Source: an uncultured Oscillospiraceae bacterium (lineage in GTDB: Bacteria > Bacillota > Clostridia > Oscillospirales > Oscillospiraceae). Taken from it: 42,253 nt of DNA. The stretch lies in the NCBI GenBank assembly GCA_947626905.1, contig CANQUE010000015.1, positions 1 to 42,253 of the forward strand, given 5' to 3'. Within the stretch, counting starts at the first letter, position 1; each line of letters begins with the position of its first letter. This document shows, piece by piece, positions 4,728 through 22,915 of the stretch. The notes beneath the pieces are model-generated. The model made no database searches and was not told the origin of the DNA. It was given only the letters and a program-made list of their open reading frames with translations. The position numbers were made by a program, and so were the translations under genes.

Positions 4728-4741
<14 letters not shown>
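3749..4741 (-). CDS. Sugar-type ABC importer permease (RbsC/XylH family)
   Basis: A 330-residue membrane permease of the ribose/xylose/inositol class. It has about 8-10 hydrophobic segments. The family signature region GIDLSVGANAVFCACLMGAL (residues about 63-82) and GGNMEATRLSGI (about 197-208, the ATPase-contact region) are present. It would form the channel for the sugar or cyclitol delivered by the binding protein at 6430-7419. The ATG overlaps the end of the ATPase gene by 14 bases, which indicates translational coupling. Transport of inositol is inferred from the divergent iol genes. Confidence 0.9.
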
Positions 4742-6242
<1,501 letters not shown>

Positions 6243-7994: not shown

Positions 7995-8897
7995 ATGTTC
8001 GACCCCAAGACCGTTTCTCTGGGCATCGCGCCCATCGGCTGGTGCAACGACGATATGCCGGAGCTGGGCGCGGAGAACACGTTCAAGCAGACCGTCAGCG
8101 AGATGGCCCTGGCCGGGTTCACCGGCTGCGAGATCGGCAACAAGTACCCCAAGGACCCGGCGGAGCTGAAAAAGGCTCTGGACCTGCGGGGCATGCGCAT
8201 CGCCAGCCGCTGGTACTCGTCCTTCATCCTGACCCGCCCCATGGAGGAGGAGATCGCGGACTTTACCGCCAATCTGGACTTCCTGTCCGCCGTGGGCGCC
8301 AACCGGATCAACGTCAGCGAACAGAGCTATTCCATCCAGGGCAAAATGGACGTGCCCATCCTCACCGGCGGACACAAGCATGTGATGGATGACGGCGAGT
8401 GGGACCGTTTCTGCGCCGGATTGAACACCCTGGGCAAGATCGCGGCGGACCGGGGCTTCAAGCTGTGCTTCCACCACCATATGGGCACCGTGGTGCAGAC
8501 CAGCGCCGAGACCGACCGGATGATGGCCAACACCGATCCCCGGTACGTCTTCCTGTGCTATGACACCGGCCATTTCACCTTCGCCGGCGAGGACCCTCTG
8601 GCCATGCTGAAAAAGTATGTGGACCGGGTGGGCCACGTGCATCTGAAGGATATGCGCCTGCCGGTGGTAGCCGAGGTGAAGAGCAAGGGCCTGAGTTTCC
8701 TGCAGGCGGTGCGCAGCGGCGCTTTCACCGTCCCCGGGGACGGGGACGTGGACTTTGATCCCGTGTTCCAGGTGCTGGCCCAGGCCGGCTATCAGGGGTG
8801 GCTGCTGGTGGAGGCCGAGCAGGACCCGGCCAAGGCCGAGCCGCTGGAGTACGCCATCAAGGGCCGCAGATACATCCACGAGCATACAGGGCTTTAA
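7995..8897 (+). CDS. iolE: Inosose dehydratase (myo-inosose-2 dehydratase)
   Basis: A 300-residue TIM-barrel enzyme of the xylose-isomerase-like superfamily. It removes water from scyllo-inosose to give 3D-trihydroxycyclohexane-1,2-dione, the second step of inositol breakdown. Family motifs are clear: GIAPIGWCNDDMPELG near the start, HHHMGT, DTGH, HVHLKD and EAEQDP, which carry the metal-binding His/Glu/Asp residues. Length matches Bacillus IolE. The ATG at 7995 has AAGGAGG 9 bases upstream; upstream in-frame codons lack such a site. First gene of the 13-gene operon, 11 bases ahead of iolB. Confidence 0.95.
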   Translation: MFDPKTVSLGIAPIGWCNDDMPELGAENTFKQTVSEMALAGFTGCEIGNKYPKDPAELKKALDLRGMRIASRWYSSFILTRPMEEEIADFTANLDFLSAVGANRINVSEQSYSIQGKMDVPILTGGHKHVMDDGEWDRFCAGLNTLGKIAADRGFKLCFHHHMGTVVQTSAETDRMMANTDPRYVFLCYDTGHFTFAGEDPLAMLKKYVDRVGHVHLKDMRLPVVAEVKSKGLSFLQAVRSGAFTVPGDGDVDFDPVFQVLAQAGYQGWLLVEAEQDPAKAEPLEYAIKGRRYIHEHTGL

Positions 8898-8908
8898 AGG
8901 AGGCCGGC

Positions 8909-9709
8909 ATGAGTTATTTCAATAAGAACGCGGAACTGAAGCGCGGCTACAACGCCTACATCGACGCGGCCGCGGACGACATGGGCACCCAGATGGACGT
9001 GGGCCTGCTCCTCCTGGAACCGGGCGACACCTATGTGATCGACGAGGCGGAAAAGGAGACCGCCGTGCTGCTGTTCGAGGGGGACGTGACCTATGAATGG
9101 GCCGGCCGCACCGTGGAGGCCCACCGGCCCGACTGCTTCCATTACGAGGCCTTCTGCCTGCTGGCGCCCCGGCGCACCCGGATCGTTCTCACCGCCCACG
9201 GCCACAGCGAGCTGTACATCCAGCAGACCGTGAACGGCACGGACTACGCCCCCGTCATGTACGCCCCCGAGGACGTGCAGGTGCAGCATGCCGGCGCCAG
9301 CGGGGAGCTGATGGGCTGCATGCGCCGGGAGATCAAGACCTTCTTTGATTACGACAACGCCCCCTTCTCCAACATGGTCCTGGGCGAGGTGCTCAACTTC
9401 CCCGGCAAGTGGTCCTCCTATCCCCCCCACCACCATCCCCAGCCGGAGGTGTATTTCTACCGCTTCGACTATCCCGACGGCTTCGGCGCGGGCTTTGCCA
9501 ATGGGGAGATCTTCCGGACCGGCCACAACGGCTGCGCCGTCATCAACCACGGCTTCCACTCCCAGGCCGCCGCGCCGGGCTACGCCATGTGCTACGCCTG
9601 GGGCATCCGGCACCTGGACGGGGACCCCTGGCTGAAGACCCGGATCGACGACCCCGAGCACGCCTGGCTTTGGAAGCCGGACGCCAACGAGCATATCTTC
9701 CAGGGCTGA
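8909..9709 (+). CDS. iolB: 5-deoxy-glucuronate isomerase
   Basis: A 266-residue double-cupin protein. It isomerises 5-deoxy-D-glucuronate, the IolD product, to 2-deoxy-5-keto-D-gluconate. The metal-binding cupin motif HHHPQPEVYFYRF in the second half is the IolB hallmark, followed by YPDGFG. Length is normal for the family. AAAGGAGG precedes the ATG by about 5 bases. In classical pathways its product goes to the IolC kinase, which is absent from this window. Here the product may instead be the donor for the transketolase encoded four genes downstream. Confidence 0.94.
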   Translation: MSYFNKNAELKRGYNAYIDAAADDMGTQMDVGLLLLEPGDTYVIDEAEKETAVLLFEGDVTYEWAGRTVEAHRPDCFHYEAFCLLAPRRTRIVLTAHGHSELYIQQTVNGTDYAPVMYAPEDVQVQHAGASGELMGCMRREIKTFFDYDNAPFSNMVLGEVLNFPGKWSSYPPHHHPQPEVYFYRFDYPDGFGAGFANGEIFRTGHNGCAVINHGFHSQAAAPGYAMCYAWGIRHLDGDPWLKTRIDDPEHAWLWKPDANEHIFQG

Positions 9710-9758
9710 GGCCCTTCACGTGAACCCTAATTATATTTTTATATAAGGAGGTATCCCA

Positions 9759-11690
9759 GTGAAAACCGTTCGTTTGACTATGGCCCAGGCGCTGGTACGG
9801 TTTTTGGAAAACCAGTACATCGACGTGGACGGCGTCCAGAGCCGTTTCGTCCGGGGCGTGTTCATGATCCCCGGCCACGGAAACGTAGTGGGCCTTGGCC
9901 AGGCGCTGAGCCAGGAGGCCAAGCATCTGGAGATCTACCAGGGCAAGAACGAGCAGGGCATGGCCCAGGCCGCCGTGGCCTTCGCCAAGCAGATGAAGCG
10001 CAAGCAGATCTTCGCCGTCACCAGCTCCATCGGCCCCGGCGCGGCCAACATGGTCACCGCCTGCGGCACCGCCACCGCCAACAACATCCCCGTTCTGGTG
10101 CTGCCCGGCGACACCTATGCCTGCCGCCAGCCCGATCCGGTGCTCCAGCAGGTGGAGCATACCTACAACCTCTCTATCTCCACCAACGACGCGTTCAAGG
10201 CCGTGTGCCGCTACTGGGACCGCATCGTCCGGCCCGAGCAGCTGATGAGCGCCATGATCTCCGCGTTCCGCACCCTCACCGACCCGGCCAACACCGGCGC
10301 GGTGTGCGTCGCCATGCCCCAGGACGTGGAGGGCGAGGCCTACGACTATCCTGTCAGCTTCTTCGCCAAGCGGGTCTGGCGCCTGGAGCGCCGGCCGGCC
10401 ACCGAGGCGGCGCTGGACGAGGCGGCGGCGGCCATCCAAAATGCCAAGCGCCCCCTGCTGGTATGCGGCGGCGGCGTGCGCTACTCCGAGGCCCATGAGG
10501 AATTCCGCGCCTTTGCCGAGGCCACCGGCATCCCCTTCGCCGAGACCCAGGCCGGCAAGAGCGCCATCGAGTGGACCCACCCCCTGAACCTGGGCGGCCT
10601 GGGCGTCACCGGCGGCTCCGCCGCCAACGAGATCGCCAAGAAGGCGGATCTGGTCATCGGCGTGGGCACCCGCTATACCGACTTCACCACCAGCTCCAAG
10701 TGGCTTTTCAAGGATAACTGCAAGTTCGTCAACATCAACGTCAGCCAGTTCCAGGCCCTGAAGATGGAGGCCGTCCCCGTGGTGGCCGACGCCAAGGACG
10801 CCCTGCCCCGGCTGCTGAAAAAGCTGGGCGGCTACAAGGCCCCCTACACCGACGAGGTGAAGAAGGCCCAGGCCAAGTGGTTCAAGGAGCTGGAGCGGCT
10901 GGACGGCATCCGCTTCGAGGACAAGGACTCCTGGAAGCCGGAGATCAACGACGCCAACGCCGGCTCCGCCCGGCGCTTCGCCCATGACCTGCACACGGAG
11001 CTGACCCAGACCGCCGCTCTGGGATACATCAACGCCGTCATGGACGACGAGGACGTGGCCATCGGCGCGGCCGGCTCCCTGCCCGGCGACATGCAGCGCA
11101 TGTGGCGGGCCGTGGGCCGGGACACCTACAACATGGAATACGGCTACTCCACCATGGGCTACGAGGTCGCCGGCGCTCTGGGCGTCAAGCTGGCCGTGGG
11201 CCCCGAGCACGAGGTCTACTCCTTCTGCGGCGACGGCAGCTTCAACATGCTCCACGGGGAGCTCATCACCGCCGTGCAGGAGCACAAGAAGATCGTGGTG
11301 TGCCTGTTCGACAACGCCAGCTTCGGCTGCATCAACAACCTGCAGGTGGGCCACGGCAACAAGACCCTGGTCACGGAGCTGCGCAGCCGCAGCAAGGACG
11401 GCGGTCTGAACGGCCCGTTCATGGACATCAACTACGCCAAGGTGGCGGAGGCCTATGGCTGCGTCAGCTTCCAGGCCCGGACCATGGCCGAGCTTGCGGA
11501 CGCGGTGGAGGCGGCCAAGAAGGTGAAGAACGTCCCCGTGCTCATCGACATCAAGGTCCTCCCCAAGACCATGACCGACGGCTATGGCTCCTGGTGGCGG
11601 GTAGGCGACACCGAGGTCTCCCAGCGGCCGGAGAACGTGGCGGCCTACGCCGACCATCTGGCCCACGTGAAGGACGCGCGCAAGTTCTGA
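9759..11690 (+). CDS. iolD: 3D-(3,5/4)-trihydroxycyclohexane-1,2-dione hydrolase
   Basis: A 643-residue thiamine-diphosphate enzyme of the acetolactate-synthase superfamily. It opens the cyclohexane-dione ring by hydrolysis to give 5-deoxy-D-glucuronate. The N-terminal Glu region (YQGKNEQGMAQAAVAFAK) activates the cofactor. The C-terminal thiamine-diphosphate motif runs from GDGSFNM to DNASFGCINN (about 487-530) and binds Mg2+ and the diphosphate. Length fits IolD. The start is GTG with an ideal AAGGAGG 7 bases upstream. It is placed between iolB and iolG in the operon, with gaps under 50 bases. Confidence 0.95.
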   Translation: MKTVRLTMAQALVRFLENQYIDVDGVQSRFVRGVFMIPGHGNVVGLGQALSQEAKHLEIYQGKNEQGMAQAAVAFAKQMKRKQIFAVTSSIGPGAANMVTACGTATANNIPVLVLPGDTYACRQPDPVLQQVEHTYNLSISTNDAFKAVCRYWDRIVRPEQLMSAMISAFRTLTDPANTGAVCVAMPQDVEGEAYDYPVSFFAKRVWRLERRPATEAALDEAAAAIQNAKRPLLVCGGGVRYSEAHEEFRAFAEATGIPFAETQAGKSAIEWTHPLNLGGLGVTGGSAANEIAKKADLVIGVGTRYTDFTTSSKWLFKDNCKFVNINVSQFQALKMEAVPVVADAKDALPRLLKKLGGYKAPYTDEVKKAQAKWFKELERLDGIRFEDKDSWKPEINDANAGSARRFAHDLHTELTQTAALGYINAVMDDEDVAIGAAGSLPGDMQRMWRAVGRDTYNMEYGYSTMGYEVAGALGVKLAVGPEHEVYSFCGDGSFNMLHGELITAVQEHKKIVVCLFDNASFGCINNLQVGHGNKTLVTELRSRSKDGGLNGPFMDINYAKVAEAYGCVSFQARTMAELADAVEAAKKVKNVPVLIDIKVLPKTMTDGYGSWWRVGDTEVSQRPENVAAYADHLAHVKDARKF

Positions 11691-11737
11691 TATCCCTGAA
11701 AATCTACATATCATATATAATGAAGGAAGGCTCAAAC

Positions 11738-12775
11738 ATGGATAAAGTTTTGAAGATCGGCATCATCGGCTGCGGCGCCATTGGCAAGGATCATTGCCGC
11801 CGCATCATCGAGACCGTCCCCGGCGCCACCGTGGTGGCCGTCAGCGACTATGTGGCCGCCGCCGCGGACGACACCGCCGCGAAATACGGCATCCGCTCCT
11901 TTGGCAGCGACTGCGACGGCATGATCAAGGACCCGGAGGTGGAGGCCGTCATGATCACCTCCATCGACCCCACCCACCACGACTACGTGATGAAGACCCT
12001 GGCCGAGGAGAAGTGGTGCTTCTGCGAAAAGCCCCTGAGCCAGAACGCCGCCGACTGCGAGGACATCATCCGCCGGGAGCTGGAGATCGGCCAGCGGAAG
12101 GTCCAGGTGGGCTTCATGCGCCACTATGACCGGGGCTATGCCGAGATGAAGCGGATCATCGAATCCGGCGAGCTGGGCGCGCCCCTGCTCATCAAGGCCT
12201 GCCACCGCAACGTCTCCCAGGGCCCGGGCTTCAAGACCGAAAACGGCGTCACCAACGTGGCCATCCATGAGCTGGACATCTGCCGGTGGCTGCTGGACGA
12301 CGAGTATGAGGACGTGCAGTGCGTAAAGGTGCGCCAGTCCGCCAACTCCAACAAGGGCTACGACAACCCCCAGGTCATGCTCATGCGCACCAAGAAGGGC
12401 TGCTTCATCGACGTGGAGGTCCAGGTGGCCGACGGCTACGGCTACGATATCCAGTGCGAGGTGGTCTGCGAAAACGGCACCGTGAAGCTGCCCGACCCCT
12501 ACGCGGTGGTCTGCCGCTCCCGTCCCTCCGGCTGGGACAGCGTCCGGCCCGCCGAATCCATGCCCATCATGACCGACTGGAAAGAGCGGTTCATCGAGGC
12601 GTACGACATCGAGATGATCAAGTGGGTGGAGTCCGTCCACGCCGGGAAGCTCACCGGTCCCTCCGCCTGGGACGGCTATGTGGCCTGCGTGGCGGGCGAC
12701 GCGCTGAACGCCTCCCGCGGCACCTCCCAGTTCTACAAAGTGGAGGCCATGGACAAGCCCGCGCTGTATATGTGA
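11738..12775 (+). CDS. iolG: myo-inositol 2-dehydrogenase
   Basis: A 345-residue Gfo/Idh/MocA oxidoreductase that oxidises myo-inositol to scyllo-inosose with NAD+. The sequence follows Bacillus IolG closely: GIIGCGAIGKDH (8-19, cofactor), CEKPL (Lys98), QVGFMRHYD, GYGYDIQCE, and SGPTAWDGY-like GPSAWDGY near the end. One point is odd. The residue four before the catalytic His177 is Asn173, whereas IolG, as I recall it, has the catalytic Asp there. The start at 11738 has GAAGGAAGG 7 bases upstream; an earlier in-frame ATG at 11720 overlaps that site. It is the only operon member of its family; the second paralogue is at 2644-3660. Confidence 0.93.
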   Translation: MDKVLKIGIIGCGAIGKDHCRRIIETVPGATVVAVSDYVAAAADDTAAKYGIRSFGSDCDGMIKDPEVEAVMITSIDPTHHDYVMKTLAEEKWCFCEKPLSQNAADCEDIIRRELEIGQRKVQVGFMRHYDRGYAEMKRIIESGELGAPLLIKACHRNVSQGPGFKTENGVTNVAIHELDICRWLLDDEYEDVQCVKVRQSANSNKGYDNPQVMLMRTKKGCFIDVEVQVADGYGYDIQCEVVCENGTVKLPDPYAVVCRSRPSGWDSVRPAESMPIMTDWKERFIEAYDIEMIKWVESVHAGKLTGPSAWDGYVACVAGDALNASRGTSQFYKVEAMDKPALYM

Positions 12776-12823
12776 TCCACCCGCTCAACGACTTTGCGGC
12801 CCGGCCGCAGAAGGAAGGATTGT

Positions 12824-13666
12824 ATGAAAGATCTGAACGTAAAGCAGCTCAATATCCTGGCGGCCCAGATCCGGCTGGAAACCTTGAAGGTCATCCACTC
12901 CCGGGGCTTCGGCCACGTGGGCGGCTCGGTGGATCTGGCGGAGATGCTGGCGGTGCTGTACGGCGCGGCCATGCGCTTCGATCCCAAGGACCCCCGCTGG
13001 CCCGACCGGGACTGGCTCGTTCTCTCCAAGGGCCACGCGGGGCCGGCGGCTTACGCCACCTTCGGCCTGATGGGCTATTACCCCCTGGAGCAGGCCTATA
13101 CCCTCAACCATCCCCACACCCGCTTCCCCAGCCACACCGACCGGCTGCTGACCCCCGGCGTGGATCTGACCACCGGCTCTCTGGGCCAGGGGGCCTCCAG
13201 CGCCATGGGCGCCGCCCTGGGCAACAAGCTGGACGGCCGTGACAGCCGGGTCTACCTAGTGGTGGGCGACGGCGAGGCCGACGAGGGCCAGGTCTGGGAA
13301 GCGTTCCACTTTGCCGCGGCCCACAAGCTGGACAACGTGGTGGTGTTCCTGGACATGAACGGCTACCAGCTGGACGGCCCCACCGCCGAGATCCTGGACC
13401 ACGGCGACCTGCCCGGAAAGGTAGCGGCCTTCGGCCTGTATACCCAGCAGGTGGACGGCCACGACGTGGCGGCCATCTATCACGCCTTGGAAGCCGCCCT
13501 GGCCCATAAGGGCTCCCCCAGCTGCATCGTGCTGAACACCTGCAAGGGCAAGGGAGCCACCTTCGCCGAGAGCAGCCACGCCCACAGCTCCCAGCCCAAC
13601 GAGGAACAGTGGGCCGAGGCCCTTCAGGCGGCGGAGCAGGCCCTGGAAGCGGCCAGGCAGGCGTAA
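12824..13666 (+). CDS. Transketolase, N-terminal subunit (thiamine-diphosphate binding)
   Basis: A 280-residue half-transketolase. Split N and C subunits are common in Firmicutes and archaea. It carries SRGFGHVGGSVDLAE, the pyrophosphate/Mg motif GDGEADEGQVWEA followed by LDMNGYQLDG (about 147-182), and HAHSSQPNEEQ near the end. With the next gene it would move a two-carbon ketol unit from a ketose to an aldose. Its place right after iolG and before a 4-carbon semialdehyde reductase suggests that the donor is 2-deoxy-5-keto-D-gluconate from IolB. The ordinary alternative is a pentose-phosphate role. AAGGAAGG lies 5 bases upstream of the ATG. Confidence 0.92.
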   Translation: MKDLNVKQLNILAAQIRLETLKVIHSRGFGHVGGSVDLAEMLAVLYGAAMRFDPKDPRWPDRDWLVLSKGHAGPAAYATFGLMGYYPLEQAYTLNHPHTRFPSHTDRLLTPGVDLTTGSLGQGASSAMGAALGNKLDGRDSRVYLVVGDGEADEGQVWEAFHFAAAHKLDNVVVFLDMNGYQLDGPTAEILDHGDLPGKVAAFGLYTQQVDGHDVAAIYHALEAALAHKGSPSCIVLNTCKGKGATFAESSHAHSSQPNEEQWAEALQAAEQALEAARQA

Positions 13667-13680
13667 AGGAGGGCATGAAT

Positions 13681-14655
13681 ATGAACATCAAGCTGATCGC
13701 GAAGCATGAAAAGGACGCCCGGGCCAGTCGGGACGCCATCGTCACCACCCTGGAGGAGCTGATGGACGCCGATCCGTCGGTCTGCTACGTGGACTGCGAC
13801 CTGATGGGTTGTCTGAATACCAAGGGCCTGTGGAAAAAGCATCCCGACCGGGCCATCCAGGCCGGCATCGCCGAGGCCAACGCCGCCGGGGTCTGCGCGG
13901 GTCTGGCCGCCACGGGCAAGAACGTGTTTTTCCACTCCTTCGGCACCTTCTCCTCCCGCCGGTGCTATGACCAGATCTATATGTCCGCGGCCTACGCGGG
14001 CCTGACCGTGCACGTGCTGGGCTCCGACGCGGGCGTCACCGCCGCGTTCAACGGCGGCACCCATATGCCTCTGGAGGACGCGGGGATGTATCTGTCCATC
14101 CCCCAGACCACGGTGATCGACGCCTGCGACTATGACCAGCTGTACAGCGTCATGCACAGCCTCGCCCACACCCAGGGCGTCAGCTATACCCGCTTCGTCC
14201 GCAAGGACGTGATCCAGGTCTATGCCCCGGGCTCCCAGTTTGAGATCGGCAAGGGCGTGGTGCTGCACGAAAGCGGCGAGGACGCCTGCGCCGTCATCTG
14301 CTCGGGCATCATGGTGGACGAGGCCCTAAAGGCATACGAATCCCTTCAGGCCCAGGGCATAACGATCCGGGTGATCGATATGTTCACCTGGAAGCCCCTG
14401 GACGAGGCCCTGGTCCGCAAGGCCGCCGCCGAGACCGGCTGCGTCGTCACGGCGGAGAACCACAACGTCACCTGCGGCCTGGGCGCCGCGGTGGCCAGCT
14501 GCCTGGCCAAGGACCATCCCGTGCCCCAGGAGTTCGTGGGCGTACAGGACCGGTTCGGCCAGGTGGGTCCCCAGAGTTTTCTGATGGATGAATACGGCCT
14601 GCGGGCCGCCGACATCGAGGCCGCTGTGAAGCGCGCCATCGCCCGCAAATCATAA
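13681..14655 (+). CDS. Transketolase, C-terminal subunit (pyrimidine-binding and C domains)
   Basis: A 324-residue partner of the preceding gene. The GIAEANAAGVCAGLA motif holds Glu65, which contacts the thiamine aminopyrimidine. The C-terminal domain reads GIVV-like ICSGIMVDEAL, VIDMFTWKPLD and VVTAENHNVTCGLG. I chose ATG 13681 because AAAGGAGGG sits 7 bases away. ATG 13675 is in frame but almost touches that site. The 14-base gap to the N subunit indicates co-translation. The heterodimer's donor in this operon is proposed to be an inositol-derived deoxy-keto acid (inference). Confidence 0.92.
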   Translation: MNIKLIAKHEKDARASRDAIVTTLEELMDADPSVCYVDCDLMGCLNTKGLWKKHPDRAIQAGIAEANAAGVCAGLAATGKNVFFHSFGTFSSRRCYDQIYMSAAYAGLTVHVLGSDAGVTAAFNGGTHMPLEDAGMYLSIPQTTVIDACDYDQLYSVMHSLAHTQGVSYTRFVRKDVIQVYAPGSQFEIGKGVVLHESGEDACAVICSGIMVDEALKAYESLQAQGITIRVIDMFTWKPLDEALVRKAAAETGCVVTAENHNVTCGLGAAVASCLAKDHPVPQEFVGVQDRFGQVGPQSFLMDEYGLRAADIEAAVKRAIARKS

Positions 14656-14670
14656 TCAGGAGGATCATCA

Positions 14671-15852
14671 ATGGCTATGGACGCATTTTCCGCCGCTCTG
14701 ATGGCGGACAAGAGAGAGATCATCTTCGCCCCCACCGTGTACAAGTTCGGCACCTTCGCCCAGATGGCGGAGCAGTTCAAGCTCAACGAGCGGGACGTGG
14801 TGCTCACCAACGAGTTCATCTATCACCCCTTCATGGAGGAGCTGGGCCTGCCCTGCCAGTACGTCTTCCAAGAGAAGTTCGGCGCCGGCGAACCCAGCGA
14901 GGCCATGATCCAGACCATGTACGACGCCATCCCCTACGACAGCTATGACCGGGTCATCGCCGTGGGCGGCGGCGCCATCATGGATCTGTGCAAGCTGCTG
15001 GGCTGCAAGCGGCCCGACACGGTACATAACCTGTATTTCAAGCGCTTCCCCGTGATCCATGAGAAGGACGTCATCGCCGTGCCCACCACCTGCGGCACCG
15101 GCTCCGAGTGCACCAACATCTCCGTGGCCATCGTCAAGGACGAGAAGGACGGCGTGCTCACCGGCGGCGAGACCAAGCTGGGCCTGGTCTCCGACGACAT
15201 CATCCCCAACAAGGTCTGCCTGATCCCGGATCTGCTGCGGACCCTGCCCTACAAGCCCTTTGCCTGCTCCGCCATCGACGCGCTGGTCCACGCCACCGAG
15301 TCCTTCCTCTCCCCCCACCGGAAGACCATGACTTCGGAGCTGTTCTCCGTCAAGGCCATGGAGCTGATCCTCAAGGGCTTCAAGCTGCTGGACGAGAAGG
15401 GCCAGGAGGCCCGGTTCGAGTACATGGACCAGTTCGTCACCGCCTCCTTCTACGCGGGCATCGCCTTCCTGAAGGCCGGCTGCGGCCCGGTGCACGGCAT
15501 GAGCTTCCCTCTGGGCGGCACCTATCACGTGCCCCACGGCGAGAGCAACTATATGCTCTTCGGCGCCATCCTGGACTACTATGACGAGCACAACCCCGAC
15601 GGGGAGATCATGAAGTTCAAGGAGCTGATCGCCTCCATCGTGGGATGCGAAGCGAAGGACGCCATCCCGACGCTGAACGCGCTGCTGCAGCGGATCCTGC
15701 CTCTGCGGCCGCTGCGGGACTGCGGCTTCACCGAGGCCGATTTCAAGGCCTTCCCCCTGTCTGTGGAGGCCAATCAGCAGCGGCTGATGACCAACGCCTA
15801 CTATCCCTTTGACCTGGCCAGCGAAGAGGCCATCTACCGCAAGTGCTACTGA
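14671..15852 (+). CDS. 4-hydroxybutyrate dehydrogenase-like iron alcohol dehydrogenase (semialdehyde reductase)
   Basis: A 393-residue group-III alcohol dehydrogenase. It closely resembles clostridial 4-hydroxybutyrate dehydrogenase along its length (VYKF start, LTNEF, QEKFGAGEPS, HATESFLSPH, GGTYHVPHGESNY). The nucleotide motif GGGAIMD is at 99-105. The metal ligands Asp203, His207, His275 and His289 follow the family spacing. The known enzyme interconverts succinic semialdehyde and 4-hydroxybutyrate with NAD(H). Following a transketolase, the likely substrate here is the 3-hydroxylated analogue 3-hydroxy-4-oxobutanoate, giving 3,4-dihydroxybutyrate. AGGAGG is 8 bases before the ATG. Confidence 0.9.
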   Translation: MAMDAFSAALMADKREIIFAPTVYKFGTFAQMAEQFKLNERDVVLTNEFIYHPFMEELGLPCQYVFQEKFGAGEPSEAMIQTMYDAIPYDSYDRVIAVGGGAIMDLCKLLGCKRPDTVHNLYFKRFPVIHEKDVIAVPTTCGTGSECTNISVAIVKDEKDGVLTGGETKLGLVSDDIIPNKVCLIPDLLRTLPYKPFACSAIDALVHATESFLSPHRKTMTSELFSVKAMELILKGFKLLDEKGQEARFEYMDQFVTASFYAGIAFLKAGCGPVHGMSFPLGGTYHVPHGESNYMLFGAILDYYDEHNPDGEIMKFKELIASIVGCEAKDAIPTLNALLQRILPLRPLRDCGFTEADFKAFPLSVEANQQRLMTNAYYPFDLASEEAIYRKCY

Positions 15853-15864
15853 GCTGTTAAAACC

Positions 15865-15900
15865 GGAAGGATATGACCGCGCCCGCTGTCATATCCTTCC
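15865..15900 (+). other. Intra-operon hairpin after the semialdehyde reductase gene
   Basis: GGAAGGATATGAC (15865-15877) pairs perfectly with GTCATATCCTTCC (15888-15900), a 13-bp stem with a 10-base loop. There is no T-tract, and the next ribosome site starts 13 bases later. It may be an RNA processing or stability element that sets different levels for the sugar-acid and acyl-CoA halves of the operon. Confidence 0.6.
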
Positions 15901-15927
15901 CCGCATCTATAATAAGGAGGAAGCATC

Positions 15928-16728
15928 ATGTATACCACCATCCGCTATGAAAAGCAGGACAATATCGGCATCCTTACCATCGACCGGCCCAAGGCCCTGA
16001 ACGCGCTGAACTCCACGGTCATCGCCGAGCTGGAGCAGGCCGTCACCGAGATCGAGCAGGACGCCGGGCTGGGCGCGCTGATCATCACCGGCGAGGGCCG
16101 CTCCTTCGTGGCCGGCGCCGACATCGGCGAGCAGTACCCCATGGATGTGGCCGCCGGCCGCGCCTGGGGCCGCCGGGGCAGCGCCCTGATGCGCCGCATC
16201 GAGAAGCTGGAGATCCCCACCATCGCCGCTGTGAACGGCTTCGCCCTGGGCGGCGGCTGCGAGCTGGCCATGAGCTGCGATATCATCCTGGCCGCCGGCC
16301 CCAACGCCGAGGGCAAGGGCGGCGCCAAGTTCGGCCAGCCGGAAGTGGGACTGGGCATCACCCCGGGCTTCTCCGGCACCCAGCGCCTTCCCCGCCGGGT
16401 GGGCGTCGCCAAGGCCAAGGAGCTGATCTTCTCCGGCAGGACCATCGGCGCGGAGGAGGCCGTACAGATCGGGCTGGCCAACGCCGTGTATCCCCCCGAG
16501 GAGCTGATCAGCGGCGCCATCGCCATGGCCAAGAGCTTCACCGCCAACGCCCCCATCGCCGTAAAGTATGCCAAGGCCTGCATCGACCGGGGCATGCAGA
16601 TGGACATCGACGACGGCATCGCCTTGGAGAACGAGCTGTTCGCCATGTGCTACGCCACCGCCGACCAGAAAGAGGGCATGGGCGCGTTTTTGGAAAAGCG
16701 GAAGGAAAAGCACTTCCAGAATAAATAA
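15928..16728 (+). CDS. Enoyl-CoA hydratase (crotonase family)
   Basis: A 266-residue crotonase-fold enzyme that adds or removes water at the 2,3 position of acyl-CoA. The oxyanion-hole and catalytic regions are intact: AGADIGE (63-69), GFALGGGCELAMSCD with Glu112, and GQPEVGLGITPG with Glu139. Both catalytic glutamates of true hydratases are present. Between them is a short Gly-rich extension (GPNAEGKGGAKFGQPE), about five residues longer than usual. In the proposed route it would dehydrate 3,4-dihydroxybutyryl-CoA to 4-hydroxycrotonyl-CoA. The standard alternative is 3-hydroxybutyryl-CoA. TAAGGAGG precedes the ATG. Confidence 0.92.
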   Translation: MYTTIRYEKQDNIGILTIDRPKALNALNSTVIAELEQAVTEIEQDAGLGALIITGEGRSFVAGADIGEQYPMDVAAGRAWGRRGSALMRRIEKLEIPTIAAVNGFALGGGCELAMSCDIILAAGPNAEGKGGAKFGQPEVGLGITPGFSGTQRLPRRVGVAKAKELIFSGRTIGAEEAVQIGLANAVYPPEELISGAIAMAKSFTANAPIAVKYAKACIDRGMQMDIDDGIALENELFAMCYATADQKEGMGAFLEKRKEKHFQNK

Positions 16729-16744
16729 GCAAGGGGAACGAGGC

Positions 16745-18301
16745 ATGAAGAGAGTAAAAGTCATCACCGCCGAGGAAGCGGCGCTGATGGTCAACGACGG
16801 CGACACCATCTCCACCGGCGGATTCGTCAGCTGCGCCTGCCCGGAGGCGCTGAGCAAGGCTCTGGAAGAGCGCTTCCTCCAGACCGGCCACCCCCGGGAT
16901 CTGACGCTGTTCTTCGCGGCCGGCCAGGGCCACCGGGACGGCACAGGCGGCGACCACTACGGCCATGAGGGCATGGTCAAGCGGGTGGTGGGCGGCCACT
17001 GGGACCGGGCTCCCAAGCTGGGCGACCTGGCCCTTGCCAACAAGATCGAGGCATACAACCTGCCCCAGGGCGTCATCACCCACATGTACCGGGACATCGC
17101 CGCCCATAACATCGGCACCATCACCCATGTGGGGCTGTACACCTTTGCCGACCCCCGCAACGGCGGCGGCAAGCTGAACAGCTTCACCAAGGAGGATCTG
17201 GTGAAGCTCATCGAGATCGAGGGCGAGGAGCGGCTGCTGTACAAGGGCTTCCCCATCAACGTCTGCTTCGTGCGCGGCTCCTATGCCGACGAGTACGGCA
17301 ACTGCACCGTACACCGGGAGATCGGCCCTCTGGACGTGACCGCCCAGTGCCAGGCCACCAAAAACTCCGGCGGCAAGGTCATCGTTCAGGTGGAAAAGAT
17401 CGTCCAGGGCGGCACCCTGGACCCCAAGCTGGTGAAGATCCCCGGCATCTATGTGGACGCCATCGTGGTGGGCTCCGACGAGGACAACATGCAGTGTCTG
17501 GGCATGCCCTATGACGGGGCGCTGACAGGCGAGTTCCGCATCCCTGTGGACGCCATCCCCCCCATCCCCCTGGACGCCAAGAAGATCATCGCCCGCCGGG
17601 CCGCCATGGAGCTGCCCCAGGACGCCATCGTGAACCTGGGCACCGGCGCGCCGGAGAAGATCGCCAACGTGGCGGCCGAGGAGGGCATCTCCGACAAGAT
17701 GACCCTGACCGTGGAGGCCGGCTCCATCGCCGGCGTTCCCTACGGCGGCACCCAGTTCGGCGCGGCGGCCAACTCCATGGCCATTCTGGACCACAATGTG
17801 CAGTTCGACTTCTACCAGGGCGGCGGCCTGGACGTGGCGTTCCTGGGCCTGGCGGAGACCGCGCCCAACGGGGATCTGAACGTGTCCAAGTTCGGCACCC
17901 GCCTGGCCGGCGCCGGCGGCTTCATCGACATCACCCAGAACGCGAAGAAGGTGGTCTATTGCGGCACCTTTACGGCCAAGGGCCTGAAGACCGAGTGCCG
18001 GGACGGCAAGCTGGTCATCACCCAGGAGGGCGCAAAGAAGAAATTCGTCAACCAGGTGGAGCACATCACCTTCTCCGGCGTCTACGCCAATAAGGTCCAT
18101 CAGCCGGTGCTGTACATCACCGAGCGGGCGGTGTTCCAGCTGCGCCCCGAGGGCGTGACCCTCATCGAGATCGCCCCCGGCGTAGATCTTCAGAAGGACA
18201 TTCTCGACCAGATGGAGTTCGTGCCCCAGATCGCGGAGGACCTGAAGGAAATGGACGGCCGCATCTTCCGGGACGAGCTCATGGGCCTGGCAAACGACTG
18301 A
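16745..18301 (+). CDS. Family I acyl-CoA:acetate CoA-transferase (propionate CoA-transferase/YdiF type)
   Basis: A 518-residue fused alpha-beta CoA-transferase. Glu324 in TVEAGSIAGVPYGG occupies the place of the catalytic glutamate that forms the glutamyl-CoA thioester. GGGLDVAFLGLAE and FIDITQNAKKVVYCGTF are family motifs. Members move CoA between acetyl-, propionyl-, butyryl- and hydroxyacyl-CoA. Here it would activate a C4 hydroxy acid at the expense of butyryl- or acetyl-CoA and release butyrate or acetate, closing the cycle without ATP. It lies 16 bases after the hydratase gene. The ATG at 16745 is preceded by a modest GGGGAACGAGG site. Confidence 0.9.
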   Translation: MKRVKVITAEEAALMVNDGDTISTGGFVSCACPEALSKALEERFLQTGHPRDLTLFFAAGQGHRDGTGGDHYGHEGMVKRVVGGHWDRAPKLGDLALANKIEAYNLPQGVITHMYRDIAAHNIGTITHVGLYTFADPRNGGGKLNSFTKEDLVKLIEIEGEERLLYKGFPINVCFVRGSYADEYGNCTVHREIGPLDVTAQCQATKNSGGKVIVQVEKIVQGGTLDPKLVKIPGIYVDAIVVGSDEDNMQCLGMPYDGALTGEFRIPVDAIPPIPLDAKKIIARRAAMELPQDAIVNLGTGAPEKIANVAAEEGISDKMTLTVEAGSIAGVPYGGTQFGAAANSMAILDHNVQFDFYQGGGLDVAFLGLAETAPNGDLNVSKFGTRLAGAGGFIDITQNAKKVVYCGTFTAKGLKTECRDGKLVITQEGAKKKFVNQVEHITFSGVYANKVHQPVLYITERAVFQLRPEGVTLIEIAPGVDLQKDILDQMEFVPQIAEDLKEMDGRIFRDELMGLAND

Positions 18302-18316
18302 AAAGGAGACGGGCGT

Positions 18317-19795
18317 ATGGCACTGATGACAGCGAAAGAATACATTGAAAGCCTCCGGAAACTGCACACCCGGGTATATATGTTCGGGGAAAAGATCGAA
18401 AACTGGGTGGATCATCCCATGATCCGCCCCAGCGTCAACTGCGTGGCCATGACCTACGCTCTGGCGCAGGAGCCGGAATATGAAGATCTGATGACCGCCA
18501 CCAGCAGCCTCACCGGCCACAAGATCAACCGCTTCACCCACCTGCACCAGTCCGCGGAGGATCTGGTGAAGAAGGTGAAGATGCAGCGGCTTCTGGGCCA
18601 GAAGACCGCCAGCTGCTTCCAGCGCTGCGTGGGCATGGACGCGTTCAACGCCGTATACTCCTCCACCTACGAGATCGATGAGAAATACGGCACCCACTAT
18701 CACGAGAATTTCAAGAAATTCCTCACCTTTGTCCAGGACAACGACCTGACCGTGGACGGCGCCATGACCGACCCCAAGGGCGACCGGTCCAAGGCCCCCC
18801 ACGCCCAGGCGGACCCGGATATGTACGTGCACGTGGTGGAGCGCCGGCCCGACGGCATCGTGGTCTGCGGCGCCAAGTGCCACCAGACCGGTTCCATCAA
18901 CTCTCACTGGCACATCTTCATGCCCACCATCGCCATGGGCCCGGAGGACGCCGACTGGGCGGTGAGCTTCGCCTGCCCCTCCGACGCGGATGGCCTTTAC
19001 ATGATCTACGGCCGCCAGAGCTGCGACACCCGCAAGATGGAGCAGGGCTGCCTGATCGACGTGGGCAACGCCAAGTTCGGCGGCCAGGAGGCCCTGGTGG
19101 TGCTGGATCACGTGTTCATCCCCAACGAGTACATCTTCCTCAACGGCGAGACCGAATTCGCCGGCATGATCGTGGAGCGCTTCGCCGGCTACCACCGCCA
19201 GAGCTACGGCGGCTGCAAGGTGGGCGTGGGCGACGTGGTCATCGGCGCCGCCGCCCTGGCCGCGGAGTACAACGGCGTGGAGAAGGCCTCAGCGGTGAAG
19301 GATAAGCTCATCGAGATGACCCACCTGAACGAGACCCTCTACTGCTGCGGCGTGGCCTGCTCCTGCGAGGGCTGCCCCACCAAGGCGGGCAACTACCAGA
19401 TCGACCTGCTGCTGGCCAACGTGTGCAAGCAGAACGTGACCCGCTTCCCCTACGAGATCGTGCGCCTGGCGGAGGACATCGCCGGCGGGCTCATGGTCAC
19501 CATGCCCAGCCAGAAGGACTTCCAGTCCGATCTGCCCGTGGGCCGGGAGGGGGAGACCATCGGCCAGATCTGCCAGAAGTATTTCGCCGCCCGGGAGGGC
19601 GTCAGCACCGAGGACCGGCAGCGGATCATGCGGTTTTTGGAGAACATGTGCCTGGGCGCGGCGGCCGTCGGCTACCGCACCGAGTCGATGCACGGCGCCG
19701 GCTCCCCCCAGGCCCAGCGGATCATGATCTCCCGCCAGGGCAATATCCAGGGCAAGAAGCAGCTCGCCAAATCCGTCGCGGGCATCAAGGAATGA
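18317..19795 (+). CDS. abfD: 4-hydroxybutyryl-CoA dehydratase / vinylacetyl-CoA isomerase
   Basis: A 492-residue flavin and [4Fe-4S] enzyme. It dehydrates 4-hydroxybutyryl-CoA to crotonyl-CoA through a ketyl radical and is oxygen-sensitive. Cluster ligands known from Clostridium aminobutyricum (Cys99, Cys103, His292, Cys299) are matched with a one-residue offset by Cys100, Cys104, His293 and Cys300 (motifs ASCFQRCVGMDA and GYHRQSYGGC). Length is normal. Its presence after inositol genes is the strongest clue that a 4-hydroxyacyl-CoA is an intermediate. AAAGGAG precedes the ATG by about 8 bases. Confidence 0.95.
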   Translation: MALMTAKEYIESLRKLHTRVYMFGEKIENWVDHPMIRPSVNCVAMTYALAQEPEYEDLMTATSSLTGHKINRFTHLHQSAEDLVKKVKMQRLLGQKTASCFQRCVGMDAFNAVYSSTYEIDEKYGTHYHENFKKFLTFVQDNDLTVDGAMTDPKGDRSKAPHAQADPDMYVHVVERRPDGIVVCGAKCHQTGSINSHWHIFMPTIAMGPEDADWAVSFACPSDADGLYMIYGRQSCDTRKMEQGCLIDVGNAKFGGQEALVVLDHVFIPNEYIFLNGETEFAGMIVERFAGYHRQSYGGCKVGVGDVVIGAAALAAEYNGVEKASAVKDKLIEMTHLNETLYCCGVACSCEGCPTKAGNYQIDLLLANVCKQNVTRFPYEIVRLAEDIAGGLMVTMPSQKDFQSDLPVGREGETIGQICQKYFAAREGVSTEDRQRIMRFLENMCLGAAAVGYRTESMHGAGSPQAQRIMISRQGNIQGKKQLAKSVAGIKE

Positions 19796-19811
19796 AAAGG
19801 AGAAAGGGACT

Positions 19812-20951
19812 ATGGACTTTGAACTGAGCCGTGAGCACAAACTGCTCCAGAAGATGATGGCCGACTTCACCGAGCATGAGGTCAAGCCCATCGCGGCGGA
19901 GACGGACAAGACCTGCCAGTATCCCGCCGAGAACATCGCAAAGCTGTTCGACCTGGGCGTGATGGGCATCTGCGTGCCGAAAGAATACGGCGGCGTGGGC
20001 GCGGACGCCCTGGCCAGCGCCATCTGCGTGGAGGAGATCAGCAAGCAGTGCGCCTCCACCGGCGACATCGTGGCCACCCACAACGGCCTGTGCTGCGCCC
20101 CCATCCTGGAGCACGGCACCGACGAGCAGAAGGCCAAGTATCTGCCCATGCTCACCACCGGCCGCCACGTGGGCGCCTTCGCCCTGACCGAGCCCAACGC
20201 CGGTTCCGACGCCTCCAAGGGCCAGACCGAGGCCAAGCTGGAGGGCGACCACTATGTGATGAACGGCTCCAAGATCTTCATCACCAACGGCTATGTGGCG
20301 GATGTGTTCGTGGTCTTCGCCATGACCGACAAGTCCAAGGGCACCCGGGGCATCTCCGCGTTCATCGTGGAGAAGAGCTTCCCCGGCTTCTCCGTGGGCA
20401 AGCACGAGGAGAAGATGGGCCTGCACGGCTCCCCCACCGCCGAGATCGTGTTCCAGGACTGCATCGTGCCCAAGGAAAACCTGCTGGGTCCCGAGGGCAA
20501 GGGCTTCAAGATCGCTATGATGACCCTGGACGGCGGCCGCATCGGCATCGCCGCCCAATCTCTGGGCATCGCCGAGGGCGCTTTGGCCGAGGCCGTCAAC
20601 TATACCAAGGGCCGCGTCCAGTTCGGCAAACCCATCAGCAAATTCCAGAACACCCAGTTCACCCTGGCGGATATGCACCTGGGCTGCGAGGCCGGCAAGC
20701 TTTTGACTTACAGGGCCGCCTGGAAAAAAGACCAGGGCCAGCGCTACACCGTAGACGCTGCCATGGCCAAGCTGTTCTGCTCCGAACACGCCATGAAGGT
20801 CACCACCAAGGCCCTGCAGATGTTCGGCGGCTACGGCTATACCAAGGATTATCCCATGGAGCGCATGATGCGCGACGCGAAGATCACGGAGATCTATGAA
20901 GGCACTTCCGAGGTCCAGCGCATGGTCATCTCGGGCAATATGGGCCTGTAA
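19812..20951 (+). CDS. Acyl-CoA dehydrogenase, butyryl-CoA dehydrogenase type
   Basis: A 379-residue FAD enzyme that, with Etf, reduces crotonyl-CoA to butyryl-CoA. It has the classical domains: N-terminal helices, a middle beta domain (FALTEPNAGSDAS, FITNGYVADVF) and a C-terminal bundle. The catalytic base is Glu363 in IYEGTSEVQR. Its genes for EtfB and EtfA follow directly, as in bifurcating complexes. In the proposed pathway it may act twice, on 4-hydroxycrotonyl-CoA and on crotonyl-CoA, since no second acyl-CoA dehydrogenase is in the operon. AAAGGAGAAAGGG lies upstream of the ATG. Confidence 0.93.
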   Translation: MDFELSREHKLLQKMMADFTEHEVKPIAAETDKTCQYPAENIAKLFDLGVMGICVPKEYGGVGADALASAICVEEISKQCASTGDIVATHNGLCCAPILEHGTDEQKAKYLPMLTTGRHVGAFALTEPNAGSDASKGQTEAKLEGDHYVMNGSKIFITNGYVADVFVVFAMTDKSKGTRGISAFIVEKSFPGFSVGKHEEKMGLHGSPTAEIVFQDCIVPKENLLGPEGKGFKIAMMTLDGGRIGIAAQSLGIAEGALAEAVNYTKGRVQFGKPISKFQNTQFTLADMHLGCEAGKLLTYRAAWKKDQGQRYTVDAAMAKLFCSEHAMKVTTKALQMFGGYGYTKDYPMERMMRDAKITEIYEGTSEVQRMVISGNMGL

Positions 20952-20963
20952 GGAGGACGCAAA

Positions 20964-21764
20964 ATGAAAGTGATCGTATGTGTGAAGCAGGTGCCGGACA
21001 CCTCCGGCAAGGTAGCGGTGAATCCGGACGGCACGCTGAACCGTGCCAGCATGGAGACCATCACCAACCCGGACGACATGAACGCGGTAGAGGCGGCCCT
21101 GAAGCTGAAGGACGCCACGGGCTGCAAGGTGATCGTGGTGACCATGGGTCCTCCCCCCGCGGAGGGGATGCTGCGTGAGCTGCTGGCCATGGGCGCGGAC
21201 GAGGGCTATCTGATCTCCGGCCGGGAGTTCGGCGGCTCGGATACGTACGCCACCAGCCAGATCGTGGCGGCGGGCGTGAACAAGATCGGCGTGGAGAAGG
21301 GCGACATCGTGATGTGCGGGCGCCAGGCGATCGACGGCGACACGGCGCAGGTGGGCCCGCAGATCGCGGAGAAGCTGCATCTGCCGCAGGTGACGTACGC
21401 GGCGGACATCCAGGTAGACGGCGAGGACATCACGGTGAAGCGGATGCTGGAAGACGGGTACATGACGATCAAGGTCAAGACGCCGTGCCTGCTGACGTGC
21501 ATCAAGGAGCTGAACCAGCCGCGGTATATGAGCGTAGGAGGGATCTTCGAGGCGTACAGCAAGCCGGTGACGGTGCTGGACTATGAGGCGCTGAAGGACG
21601 ATCCGCTGATCGACGCGACGACGATCGGGCTGAAGGGGTCGCCGACGAACATTCTGGTGTCGTTCACGCCGCCGCAGAAGGGCGCGGGAATGATGCTGGA
21701 AGGCGCGGATATGGGGACGTGCGAGAAGCTGGCAGGGATCCTGGCCGGCAAGCACATCATCTGA
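20964..21764 (+). CDS. etfB: Electron transfer flavoprotein, beta subunit
   Basis: A 266-residue EtfB. CVKQVPDT at the start and GRQAIDGDTAQVGPQIAE (about 115-132) are the usual nucleotide/FAD contacts. The latter pattern is typical of the clostridial, electron-bifurcating group. It passes electrons from NADH to the acyl-CoA dehydrogenase and to ferredoxin. Codon use changes inside this gene. The first 280 bases mix GCC/ACC and GCG/ACG, while from about 21240 Ala, Thr and Pro are nearly all GCG, ACG and CCG. GGAGG lies 7 bases before the ATG. Confidence 0.95.
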   Translation: MKVIVCVKQVPDTSGKVAVNPDGTLNRASMETITNPDDMNAVEAALKLKDATGCKVIVVTMGPPPAEGMLRELLAMGADEGYLISGREFGGSDTYATSQIVAAGVNKIGVEKGDIVMCGRQAIDGDTAQVGPQIAEKLHLPQVTYAADIQVDGEDITVKRMLEDGYMTIKVKTPCLLTCIKELNQPRYMSVGGIFEAYSKPVTVLDYEALKDDPLIDATTIGLKGSPTNILVSFTPPQKGAGMMLEGADMGTCEKLAGILAGKHII

Positions 21765-21781
21765 GAGAGGAGAACGAGGAA

Positions 21782-22915
21782 ATGGGATTTAACAATACGG
21801 ATCTGGCAGCGTTCAAGGATGTGTGGGTCTTCTGCGAGCAGCGAGATGGGAAGCTGATGCCGACGGACCTGGAGCTGATGAGCGAGGGACGCCGGCTGGC
21901 GGACGAGCTGGGCGTGGACCTGTGCGGACTGCTGCTGGGGGACGGAGTAGAGAGCCTGGCGAAGGAGCTGGGCGGCTACGGCGCGGACAAGGTATATGTG
22001 TGCGAGCATCCGCTGCTGAAGGTATATACCACGGACGCGTACGCGAAGGTGATCTGCCAGGTGATCGAGGAGCTGAAGCCGGAGGCGTTCCTGATCGGAG
22101 CGACGAACATCGGGCGGGACCTGGGCCCGCGGTGCGCGGCGCGTCTGCACACGGGCCTGTGCGCGGACTGCACGCATCTGGACGTGGACATGGGGATCTA
22201 CAAGCAATTCCTGCATGAGGCGAGCACGCTGGAGGACGGACGGATCGAGGGACTGAACACGGCGATGGTGCTGGGCGAGCGGCACGACGTGAGCCGGGAC
22301 CTGAAGATGACGCGGCCGGCGTTTGGCGGCCACCTGATGGCGAGCATTATCTGCCCGCGGTTCCGTCCGACGATGGCGACGGTGCGACCGGGCGTGATGA
22401 AGAAGCGTCCCTATGACGAGGCGAAGGCGGCGGCGTGCCAGATCGTGAAGCCGGCGTTCGAGCTGAGCGAGGCGGACATGCAGACGGAAGTCACCGAGGT
22501 AGTGAAGGCGGCGAAGAAGCTGGTGGATCTGATCGGAGCGGACTTCATCGTGAGCGTGGGCCGGGGGATCAGCAAGGACGTAGAAGGCGGGATCAAGCTG
22601 GCGGAGGAGCTGGCGGAAGAGCTGGGCGGCGTCGTAGGCGGCAGCCGCGCGGTGATCGACTCTGGGTGGCTGAGCGCGGACCACCAGGTGGGCCAGACGG
22701 GCAAGACGGTGCATCCGAAGGTATACATCGCGCTGGGCATTTCGGGAGCGATCCAGCACAAGGCGGGGATGCAGGACAGCGAGTGCATCATCGCGGTGAA
22801 CAAGAACGAGACCGCGCCGATCTTCGAGATCGCGGACTATGGCATCTGCGGGGACCTGTTCAAGGTGACACCCATGCTGACGGAGGCCATTCGCGCCGCC
22901 AAGGCCGCCAAGTAA
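21782..22915 (+). CDS. etfA: Electron transfer flavoprotein, alpha subunit
   Basis: A 377-residue EtfA, partner of etfB. The C-terminal FAD domain shows GGSRAVIDSGW, GQTGKTVHPKVYIALGISGAIQH and NKNETAPIFEIADYG. There is no N-terminal ferredoxin domain. The ATG at 21782 follows a GAGGAGAACGAGGA purine stretch. Codons are strongly GCG/ACG/CCG throughout, unlike the GCC/ACC/CCC of the upstream operon genes. They return to GCC in the last 15 or so codons. It is the final gene of the operon; a terminator follows at 23014-23050. Confidence 0.95.
   Translation: MGFNNTDLAAFKDVWVFCEQRDGKLMPTDLELMSEGRRLADELGVDLCGLLLGDGVESLAKELGGYGADKVYVCEHPLLKVYTTDAYAKVICQVIEELKPEAFLIGATNIGRDLGPRCAARLHTGLCADCTHLDVDMGIYKQFLHEASTLEDGRIEGLNTAMVLGERHDVSRDLKMTRPAFGGHLMASIICPRFRPTMATVRPGVMKKRPYDEAKAAACQIVKPAFELSEADMQTEVTEVVKAAKKLVDLIGADFIVSVGRGISKDVEGGIKLAEELAEELGGVVGGSRAVIDSGWLSADHQVGQTGKTVHPKVYIALGISGAIQHKAGMQDSECIIAVNKNETAPIFEIADYGICGDLFKVTPMLTEAIRAAKAAK

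Follow-up and report, generated by a model that had tools for sequence, protein, structure and literature searches.

An uncultured Oscillospiraceae bacterium (assembly GCA_947626905.1) carries on contig CANQUE010000015.1, analysed here over its whole length of 42,253 nucleotides (the window), a thirteen-gene operon (positions 7995–22915) that we read as encoding a kinase-free pathway of inositol breakdown. In this pathway a split transketolase would cleave 2-deoxy-5-keto-D-gluconate (DKG), and the resulting four-carbon (C4) piece would be converted to butyrate in this organism and to pyruvate in others; we put the probability of this reading at about 0.77. The observations concern gene content, order and conservation, residue changes in the transketolase, the transketolase phylogeny and the lack of an IolC match over cut-off in the window's genome and its relatives. 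The interpretation, first offered in a preliminary description of the window, is supported by independent comparative evidence: a second gene architecture (type B), the transketolase residues, a single transketolase clade, rare co-occurrence with IolC and the genes found in Dysosmobacter and Oscillibacter genomes. It also seems likely that this amounts to a second general inositol route in anaerobes, in which a dedicated transketolase clade would cut DKG without kinase or aldolase to give D-malate semialdehyde, one branch (the missing pathway of Dysosmobacter) leading to butyrate by way of two new intermediates, 3,4-dihydroxybutyryl-CoA and 4-hydroxycrotonyl-CoA, and the other to D-malate and ATP via enzymes resembling glyceraldehyde-3-phosphate dehydrogenase (GAPDH) and phosphoglycerate kinase (PGK).

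The thirteen genes lie on the forward strand with gaps of 8–75 nt (start codons were chosen by us) in the order iolE, iolB, iolD, iolG2, tktN, tktC, hbd4, crt, cat, abfD, bcd, etfB, etfA, exactly as first described. The earlier assignment of the first four genes to iolE, B, D and G holds for iolE (7995..8897, inosose dehydratase; TIGR04379 407 bits, cut-off 290) and iolD (9759..11690, trihydroxycyclohexane-1,2-dione (THcHDO) hydrolase; TIGR04377 886 bits, cut-off 715) and needs qualification for the other two. The IolB-like 5-deoxyglucuronate isomerase (8909..9709) is divergent, scoring 85 bits against TIGR04378, under the cut-off of 205, and the operon IolG (iolG2, 11738..12775), an IolG-like inositol dehydrogenase of a second type, falls under both IolG cut-offs (NF052679 356 bits, cut-off 540). 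The tktN (12824..13666, PF00456) and tktC (13675..14655, PF02779/PF02780, motif R-C-F-D...N) genes encode the N- and C-terminal halves of the transketolase, with the thiamine pyrophosphate and pyrimidine domains of split enzymes; their best match is the solved split transketolase 6yak/6yaj (232 and 211 bits respectively).

Next comes hbd4 (14671..15852), encoding an iron alcohol dehydrogenase resembling 4-hydroxybutyrate dehydrogenase (331 bits to 30sm, Cvir-Hbd2) that is proposed to act as an (R)-3-hydroxy-4-oxobutanoate reductase. The crotonase gene crt (15928..16728; PRK05809 338 bits, under the cut-off of 394; 5z7r 281 bits) would encode a 3,4-dihydroxybutyryl-CoA dehydratase. All eight crotonase copies examined from clusters of the window's kind (types A and A') have a seven-residue insertion directly before the GQPE motif, which we take to hold the catalytic glutamate; the insertion is missing from 5z7r and from the copy in genome G106. 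The cat gene (16745..18301) encodes a fused class I CoA-transferase of ydiF/FadX-like type (2ahu 464 bits; NF052271 425 bits, under the cut-off of 750), which scores just 24 bits against the butyryl-CoA:acetate CoA-transferase model. The 4-hydroxybutyryl-CoA dehydratase AbfD (18317..19795; 1u8v 898 bits) retains C99, C103, E257, H292, Y296, C299 and E455 of 1u8v, presumably the 4Fe–4S cluster ligands and active-site residues, and these are kept in ten of ten AbfD copies. The operon closes with bcd (19812..20951), an acyl-CoA dehydrogenase of the butyryl/acryloyl-CoA reductase type (NF042972 539 bits, under the cut-off of 640), and with etfB (20964..21764; NF042971 498 bits, cut-off 475) and etfA (21782..22915; NF042970 680 bits, cut-off 600), both of which pass the NCBIfam cut-offs for the electron-transfer flavoprotein (Etf) of acryloyl-CoA reductase.

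In the proposed pathway, IolG, IolE, IolD and IolB would convert inositol to DKG, and the split transketolase would pass DKG carbons 5 and 6 to an aldose phosphate, for which glyceraldehyde 3-phosphate is the probable candidate (forming xylulose 5-phosphate), leaving (R)-3-hydroxy-4-oxobutanoate. Hbd4 would reduce this aldehyde to (R)-3,4-dihydroxybutyrate, the CoA-transferase would activate it and the crotonase would strip the 3-hydroxyl group to give 4-hydroxycrotonyl-CoA. The acyl-CoA dehydrogenase, with Etf, would then form 4-hydroxybutyryl-CoA, AbfD would convert this to crotonyl-CoA and the same reductase would yield butyryl-CoA. From the genes we infer all reactions beyond IolB, as well as the sequence of the CoA-level steps and which molecule accepts the C2 unit. 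The stereochemical claims of the preliminary description agree with our own drawings: in ketose numbering DKG has the fructose-like D-threo arrangement, the cleavage product is (R)-3-hydroxy-4-oxobutanoate, and the geometry of (R)-3,4-dihydroxybutyryl-CoA corresponds to that of (S)-3-hydroxybutyryl-CoA.

The phosphate site of transketolase is marked by the motif R-S-F-H-R, which in sulfofructose transketolase reads R-A-F-D-R (PMC11659671; this and the other sources given by PMC number are cited from part of their text). The window transketolase reads R-C-F-D-R and fits neither motif, having the aspartate of the sulfofructose enzyme without its alanine. Searching with a TktC profile returned 82 hits, of which nine Dxs-like hits (below 150 bits) were dropped, leaving 73 rows (51 distinct) for a motif table and a tree. 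All 41 distinct inositol-linked rows (35 in iol clusters and six unlinked rows from Dysosmobacter/Oscillibacter-type genomes) read R/K-C-F-D with asparagine at the next acidic site, and ten of ten transketolase rows from a class-wide sample of Clostridia (see below) read R/K-S-F-D-N. Aspartate replaces the phosphate-site histidine in all 51 inositol-linked transketolases examined. The histidine is retained in eight of nine TktC rows from genomes with IolC and without this transketolase (the ninth, from G384, is unaligned there), and the other transketolase of the window's genome retains R-S-F-H. In the tree, the 41 inositol-linked rows form one clade with support of 100/94, made up of 15 type A/A' sequences (G106 included) and 26 of type B. 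As a separate observation, two other split transketolases (L127 in G052 and L136 in G005) carry R-A-F-D, as in the sulfofructose transketolase motif.

The same histidine-to-aspartate replacement is described in sulfofructose transketolase (PMC11659671), which could be taken to mean that the substrate is another non-phosphorylated ketose acid or a sulfonate, perhaps sulfofructose-like, with the iol genes forming part of a mixed polyol island. We regard this as highly improbable: iol genes accompany the clade in loci from both Bacillota and Synergistota, with gene order varying, and the serine position of the inositol-linked enzymes is occupied by cysteine or serine, never by alanine.

Transketolases of the same clade occur together with iol genes, a type II GAPDH (gapB) and a PGK (pgkB) in many other Clostridia and in one Synergistaceae genome. 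Most of these type B clusters also include a malate racemase (mar) and some a malic enzyme (mae). In Christensenella sp. UBA3792 (L082) the order is gapB-pgkB-tktN-tktC-mar-mae-iolE-iolB-iolD, with the type II GAPDH at 394 bits (cut-off 185), the nickel-dependent malate racemase LarAH6 at 564 (cut-off 500) and a PGK matching PF00162; the typing of the malic enzyme comes from the L032 copy (395 bits, under the cut-off of a 764-position model). Among the best 80 of at least 579 confirmed IolB loci, the transketolase is found in 32, gapB in 31, pgkB in 31, mar in 32 (at least 50% identity), mae in 18 and a window-type hbd4 in six. None of these genes is found in 35 of the 80, 13 of which are shorter than 10 kb, with Oscillibacter-type loci among the others. 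Gene order varies in some type B loci (L054, L108, L113 and L120, for example).

In type B organisms the transketolase would release the same C4 aldehyde, (R)-malate semialdehyde, which GapB and PgkB would oxidise to D-malate with formation of ATP; the racemase would turn D-malate into L-malate, and malic enzyme would decarboxylate this to pyruvate. That a racemase is needed here agrees with the transketolase product being, as predicted, of R configuration. The GAPDH and PGK of these clusters may, however, simply belong to lower glycolysis. The GapB residues around the catalytic cysteine seem, on our understanding of that family, unlike those of the archaeal enzyme. A circularly permuted protein resembling cofactor-independent phosphoglycerate mutase (iPGM), with its Metalloenzyme domain first and iPGM_N last (L175:5935-7503; L179:14276-15940), lies with HAD phosphatases beside the inositol-linked transketolase or iol genes in 15 of the best 80 IolB loci. 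It may act on inositol phosphates; we have left it out of the mechanism because it adjoins HAD phosphatases and the transketolase even where GAPDH and PGK are missing from the stretch, and because its domains are permuted.

In the window's own genus the first half of the operon is conserved. IolD exceeds its cut-off in 12 of the 119 genomes comprising the window's genome and its relatives, eight of them in the genus (window included), and all eight carry iolE-B-D-G2-tktN-tktC-hbd4. The complete thirteen-gene operon is found in two (the window and G020). Contig ends curtail five others, at bcd (G001), at crt (G025) and in or just past hbd4 (G005, G021 and G024); the exception is G006, in which the contig continues for around 6 kb beyond hbd4 without crt-cat-abfD. 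Outside the genus, two IolD-positive genomes (G048 and G063) have the second architecture, G106 has iolB-iolD around 4 kb from a transketolase belonging to the window's clade and G052 has iolD-iolE with no transketolase in the 11.5 kb read around it.

Records named Dysosmobacter or Oscillibacter among the best 80 IolB loci show iolE-B-D(-G2) with no transketolase in the stretch. Six genomes of this type were searched whole, one named Dysosmobacter (G124), four named Oscillibacter (G126–G129) and a clostridial metagenome-assembled genome (G125). All six have iolE-B-D and, elsewhere, tktN-tktC-hbd4, with TktC at 621–634 bits and hbd4 92–94% identical; HAD phosphatases and an iPGM-like gene stand beside TktC in five of the six. 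AbfD is present in all five named genomes and was not found in G125. The block crt-cat-abfD-bcd-etfB-etfA is whole in G124 and G127; in G126, G128 and G129 contig ends interrupt it. The genes of the operon are thus spread over three separate places in the one Dysosmobacter and four Oscillibacter genomes, and the window operon therefore unites blocks that lie apart in those genomes. The genus name is no guide by itself, since the Oscillibacter-named L109 is of the second architecture.

The preliminary description had seen no IolC, IolJ or IolA in the window. Over the whole of its genome there is likewise no IolC over cut-off and no match to IolA (no search was made for IolJ). No IolC over cut-off occurs in any of the 119 genomes or in a searched set of 20 genomes; three of 14 control genomes have one. 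IolA is over cut-off in one of 31 genomes, a Synergistaceae genome without the operon-type transketolase (G137), and in five of 14 controls. An unrelated kinase and aldolase that escaped detection could still complete the canonical route, leaving the transketolase to ordinary pentose phosphate metabolism and the downstream genes to fermentation via 4-hydroxybutyrate/succinate or acetyl-CoA. In keeping with this, PfkB-family kinases match below the IolC cut-off in 110 of the 119 genomes (at best 165 bits in the window's genome), the operon-type transketolase is the sole transketolase found in some genomes and a thiolase is present. No match to operon or type B proteins is found, however, in the 12 kb surrounding the 165-bit kinase, and no CoA-dependent succinate-semialdehyde dehydrogenase is found among the thirteen operon genes (the rest of the genome was not searched for it). 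The crotonase would be left without a job, the phosphate site of the transketolase is altered and the malate racemase and malic enzyme of type B would go unexplained. We consider this explanation distinctly improbable.

A sample of 391 Clostridia genomes allows the two gene sets to be compared across the class. IolD is over cut-off in 28 genomes (window included), 11 of which have IolC over cut-off (with G195 just under, at 283 of 300) and 11 of which have TktC at 400 bits or more, a line chosen after the scores had been seen (G313 is at 384). Among IolD-positive Clostridia sampled, the transketolase type is about as frequent as IolC. The two occur together in one genome only (G468), on different contigs and each beside its own IolD; a one-sided Fisher test gives p = 0.016 without the window's genome, a value that ignores kinship. 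This genome holds both inositol cluster types separately, the transketolase at L244 (G468:C4) and IolC at G468:C10. Judged by tblastn only, gapB and pgkB lie around the transketolase in nine of the ten transketolase genomes besides the window's and mar in seven; mar and mae adjoin iol genes in G472, and neither gapB, pgkB, mar nor mae is found in the stretch from G468. The scored IolD is no more than 11 kb from the transketolase in seven transketolase genomes, and in G235 the start of iolD adjoins the transketolase at a contig end.

How the C4 piece is handled can be considered through the redox balance. By our count inositol carries 24 electrons and butyrate 20. Conversion of inositol to butyrate spends three NADH and gains one, and passage of the C2 unit via glyceraldehyde 3-phosphate to acetate returns around 1.33, with a balanced limit of 2 inositol to 2 butyrate, 1 acetate and 2 CO2. 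The deficit that arises if all C4 becomes butyrate, together with a CoA-transferase that is ydiF/FadX-like and gives so low a score to the butyryl-CoA:acetate CoA-transferase model, leaves room for a variant in which the transketolase does act on DKG and the C4 product is dealt with otherwise, being partly excreted as 3,4-dihydroxybutyrate or 4-hydroxybutyrate or activated ahead of its reduction, with butyrate as one product among others. This variant is unlikely in our estimation, though less so than the alternatives above: crt-cat-abfD-bcd-etf share an operon with the transketolase and hbd4 here, and form one block in the five Dysosmobacter- and Oscillibacter-named genomes (three of them cut by contig ends).

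Several findings weigh against the transketolase route to butyrate or pyruvate. The balance falls short by around 0.67 NADH per inositol (our count), and would need H2, formate, further oxidation or incomplete reduction of C4 to close it. The window's genome encodes a thiolase, and the contig concerned holds second copies of bcd (66% identical), etfB (100%) and etfA (99.7%) as well; butyrate can therefore probably be made from acetyl-CoA alongside the proposed route. Aspartate at the phosphate site is common to sulfofructose transketolase, and the aspartate and asparagine also occur, with alanine or serine, in L127 (from the IolD genome G052), L136 and L137, and as A-F-D-N in L222, L238 (G313) and L240 (G246) of the class sample, in all cases with no iol neighbour seen. 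At least seven genomes (G021, G048, G063, G124, G128, G134 and G138) have no second transketolase by the TktC profile, with one Dxs-like hit each; as the sole transketolase there, the enzyme may double as that of the pentose phosphate pathway. Thirteen of the best 80 IolB loci have type B genes and no transketolase in the stretch. Six of these genomes were searched whole, and three (G133, G135 and G136) carry TktC elsewhere at 466–504 bits, two Spirochaetales-named genomes (G122 and G130) give just 346 and 345 bits and G132 has none. Of 31 genomes, 14 have LarAH6 over cut-off, among them 12 type B genomes and two of type A/A' (G024 and G128), and AbfD is found in one type B genome (G136); the separation between the two gene sets is thus not absolute. 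Finally, seven of the 28 IolD genomes of the class sample have neither TktC at 400 bits nor IolC over cut-off.

A related puzzle, noted here in its own right, is the source of pentose phosphates in G048 and G063, which are 97–98% complete and in which the inositol-linked transketolase (L182 and L181, respectively) is the only one besides Dxs-like hits.

Upstream of the operon, on the reverse strand, lie genes for a sugar/inositol ATP-binding cassette (ABC) transporter, comprising an ibpA-like binding protein (6430..7419; 68 bits at best against NCBIfam models, under every cut-off), an iatA-like ATPase (4728..6242) and an iatP-like permease (3749..4741), followed by iolG for inositol 2-dehydrogenase (2644..3699; TIGR04380 363 bits, cut-off 355). 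The ibpA-like gene adjoins iolE divergently in several genomes of the genus, and we infer that inositol is the substrate of the transporter. Also outside the operon and on the reverse strand is rpe for ribulose-phosphate 3-epimerase (28231..28878; TIGR01163 245 bits, cut-off 213), which could help in recycling xylulose 5-phosphate. Just past the operon, an open reading frame at 22971–23627 (218 amino acids) matches nothing in NCBIfam or Pfam at E 0.001. The two etfBA copies in the genome (window 20964–22915 and L210:986-2937) point to a recent duplication or conversion. The assembly amounts to 2.15 Mb in 87 contigs and is 91% complete.

According to a 2025 review, certain gut bacteria, including Dysosmobacter welbionis, seem to convert myo-inositol to butyrate, and the pathway they use awaits full characterisation (PMC12482443); the preliminary description had named Dysosmobacter among gut Oscillospiraceae described as inositol users and butyrate producers. 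The route proposed here may explain such organisms. It supplies candidate genes for each step, all of them present in one uncultured Dysosmobacter genome (G124, which is not D. welbionis). No description of a transketolase step in inositol breakdown was found in the literature, covered as titles and abstract openings with few subscription papers or preprints. In faecal culture, 13C6-phytate gave 13C4-butyrate and 13C2-acetate with no other intermediates (PMC7618129), a result that fits the transketolase route without proving it. If the route is real, it adds a way to butyrate and lets carbon from inositol and phytate be used without IolC. One genome survey includes IolC in its four core genes and puts a missing core gene down to incomplete sequence, assembly error or frameshift (PMC9430895); on that scheme these organisms would be misread.

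Parts of the proposed pathway resemble known systems. The racemase that type B carries over its NCBIfam cut-off belongs to the nickel-dependent LarAH6/MAR2 group, whose main substrate is malate (PMC11770544); in word counts over the text available, that paper has no inositol or transketolase context. The closest likeness for the cleavage itself is the sulfo-transketolase (SqwGH) pathway, in which a split transketolase passes C2 from a non-phosphorylated, acidic-tailed C6 ketose to glyceraldehyde 3-phosphate, forming xylulose 5-phosphate, leaving a C4 aldehyde and having the phosphate-site histidine changed to aspartate (PMC11659671). Here, by contrast, the proposed substrate is an inositol-derived carboxylate, the C4 piece would go to butyrate or malate without a second transketolase cut, and the serine position is cysteine in the window rather than the alanine of the sulfofructose enzyme. 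A second cut on the C4 product, as in the sulfo-transketolase pathway, was considered and set aside: by our own reasoning it seems impossible, as no hydroxyl would stand beside the keto group after isomerisation.

With the canonical myo-inositol pathway (IolG-E-D-B-C-J-A) the proposed route shares IolG, IolE, IolD and IolB and their product DKG, and with the Anaerostipes propionate variant a subsequent CoA-transferase, enoyl-CoA dehydratase and Etf-linked reductase (PMC8355322). It differs from both in having no IolC over cut-off and in a proposed C4 plus C2 cut by transketolase in place of a C3 plus C3 split of the 6-phosphate, and from the Anaerostipes variant in its proposed end product, butyrate instead of propionate. 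The lower half of the operon resembles the pathway from 4-aminobutyrate or succinate to butyrate, with an enzyme resembling 4-hydroxybutyrate dehydrogenase, a CoA-transferase, AbfD and butyryl-CoA dehydrogenase; unlike that pathway, the operon lacks a succinate-semialdehyde dehydrogenase and adds a crotonase and a transketolase, and the proposed source of its C4 unit is inositol.

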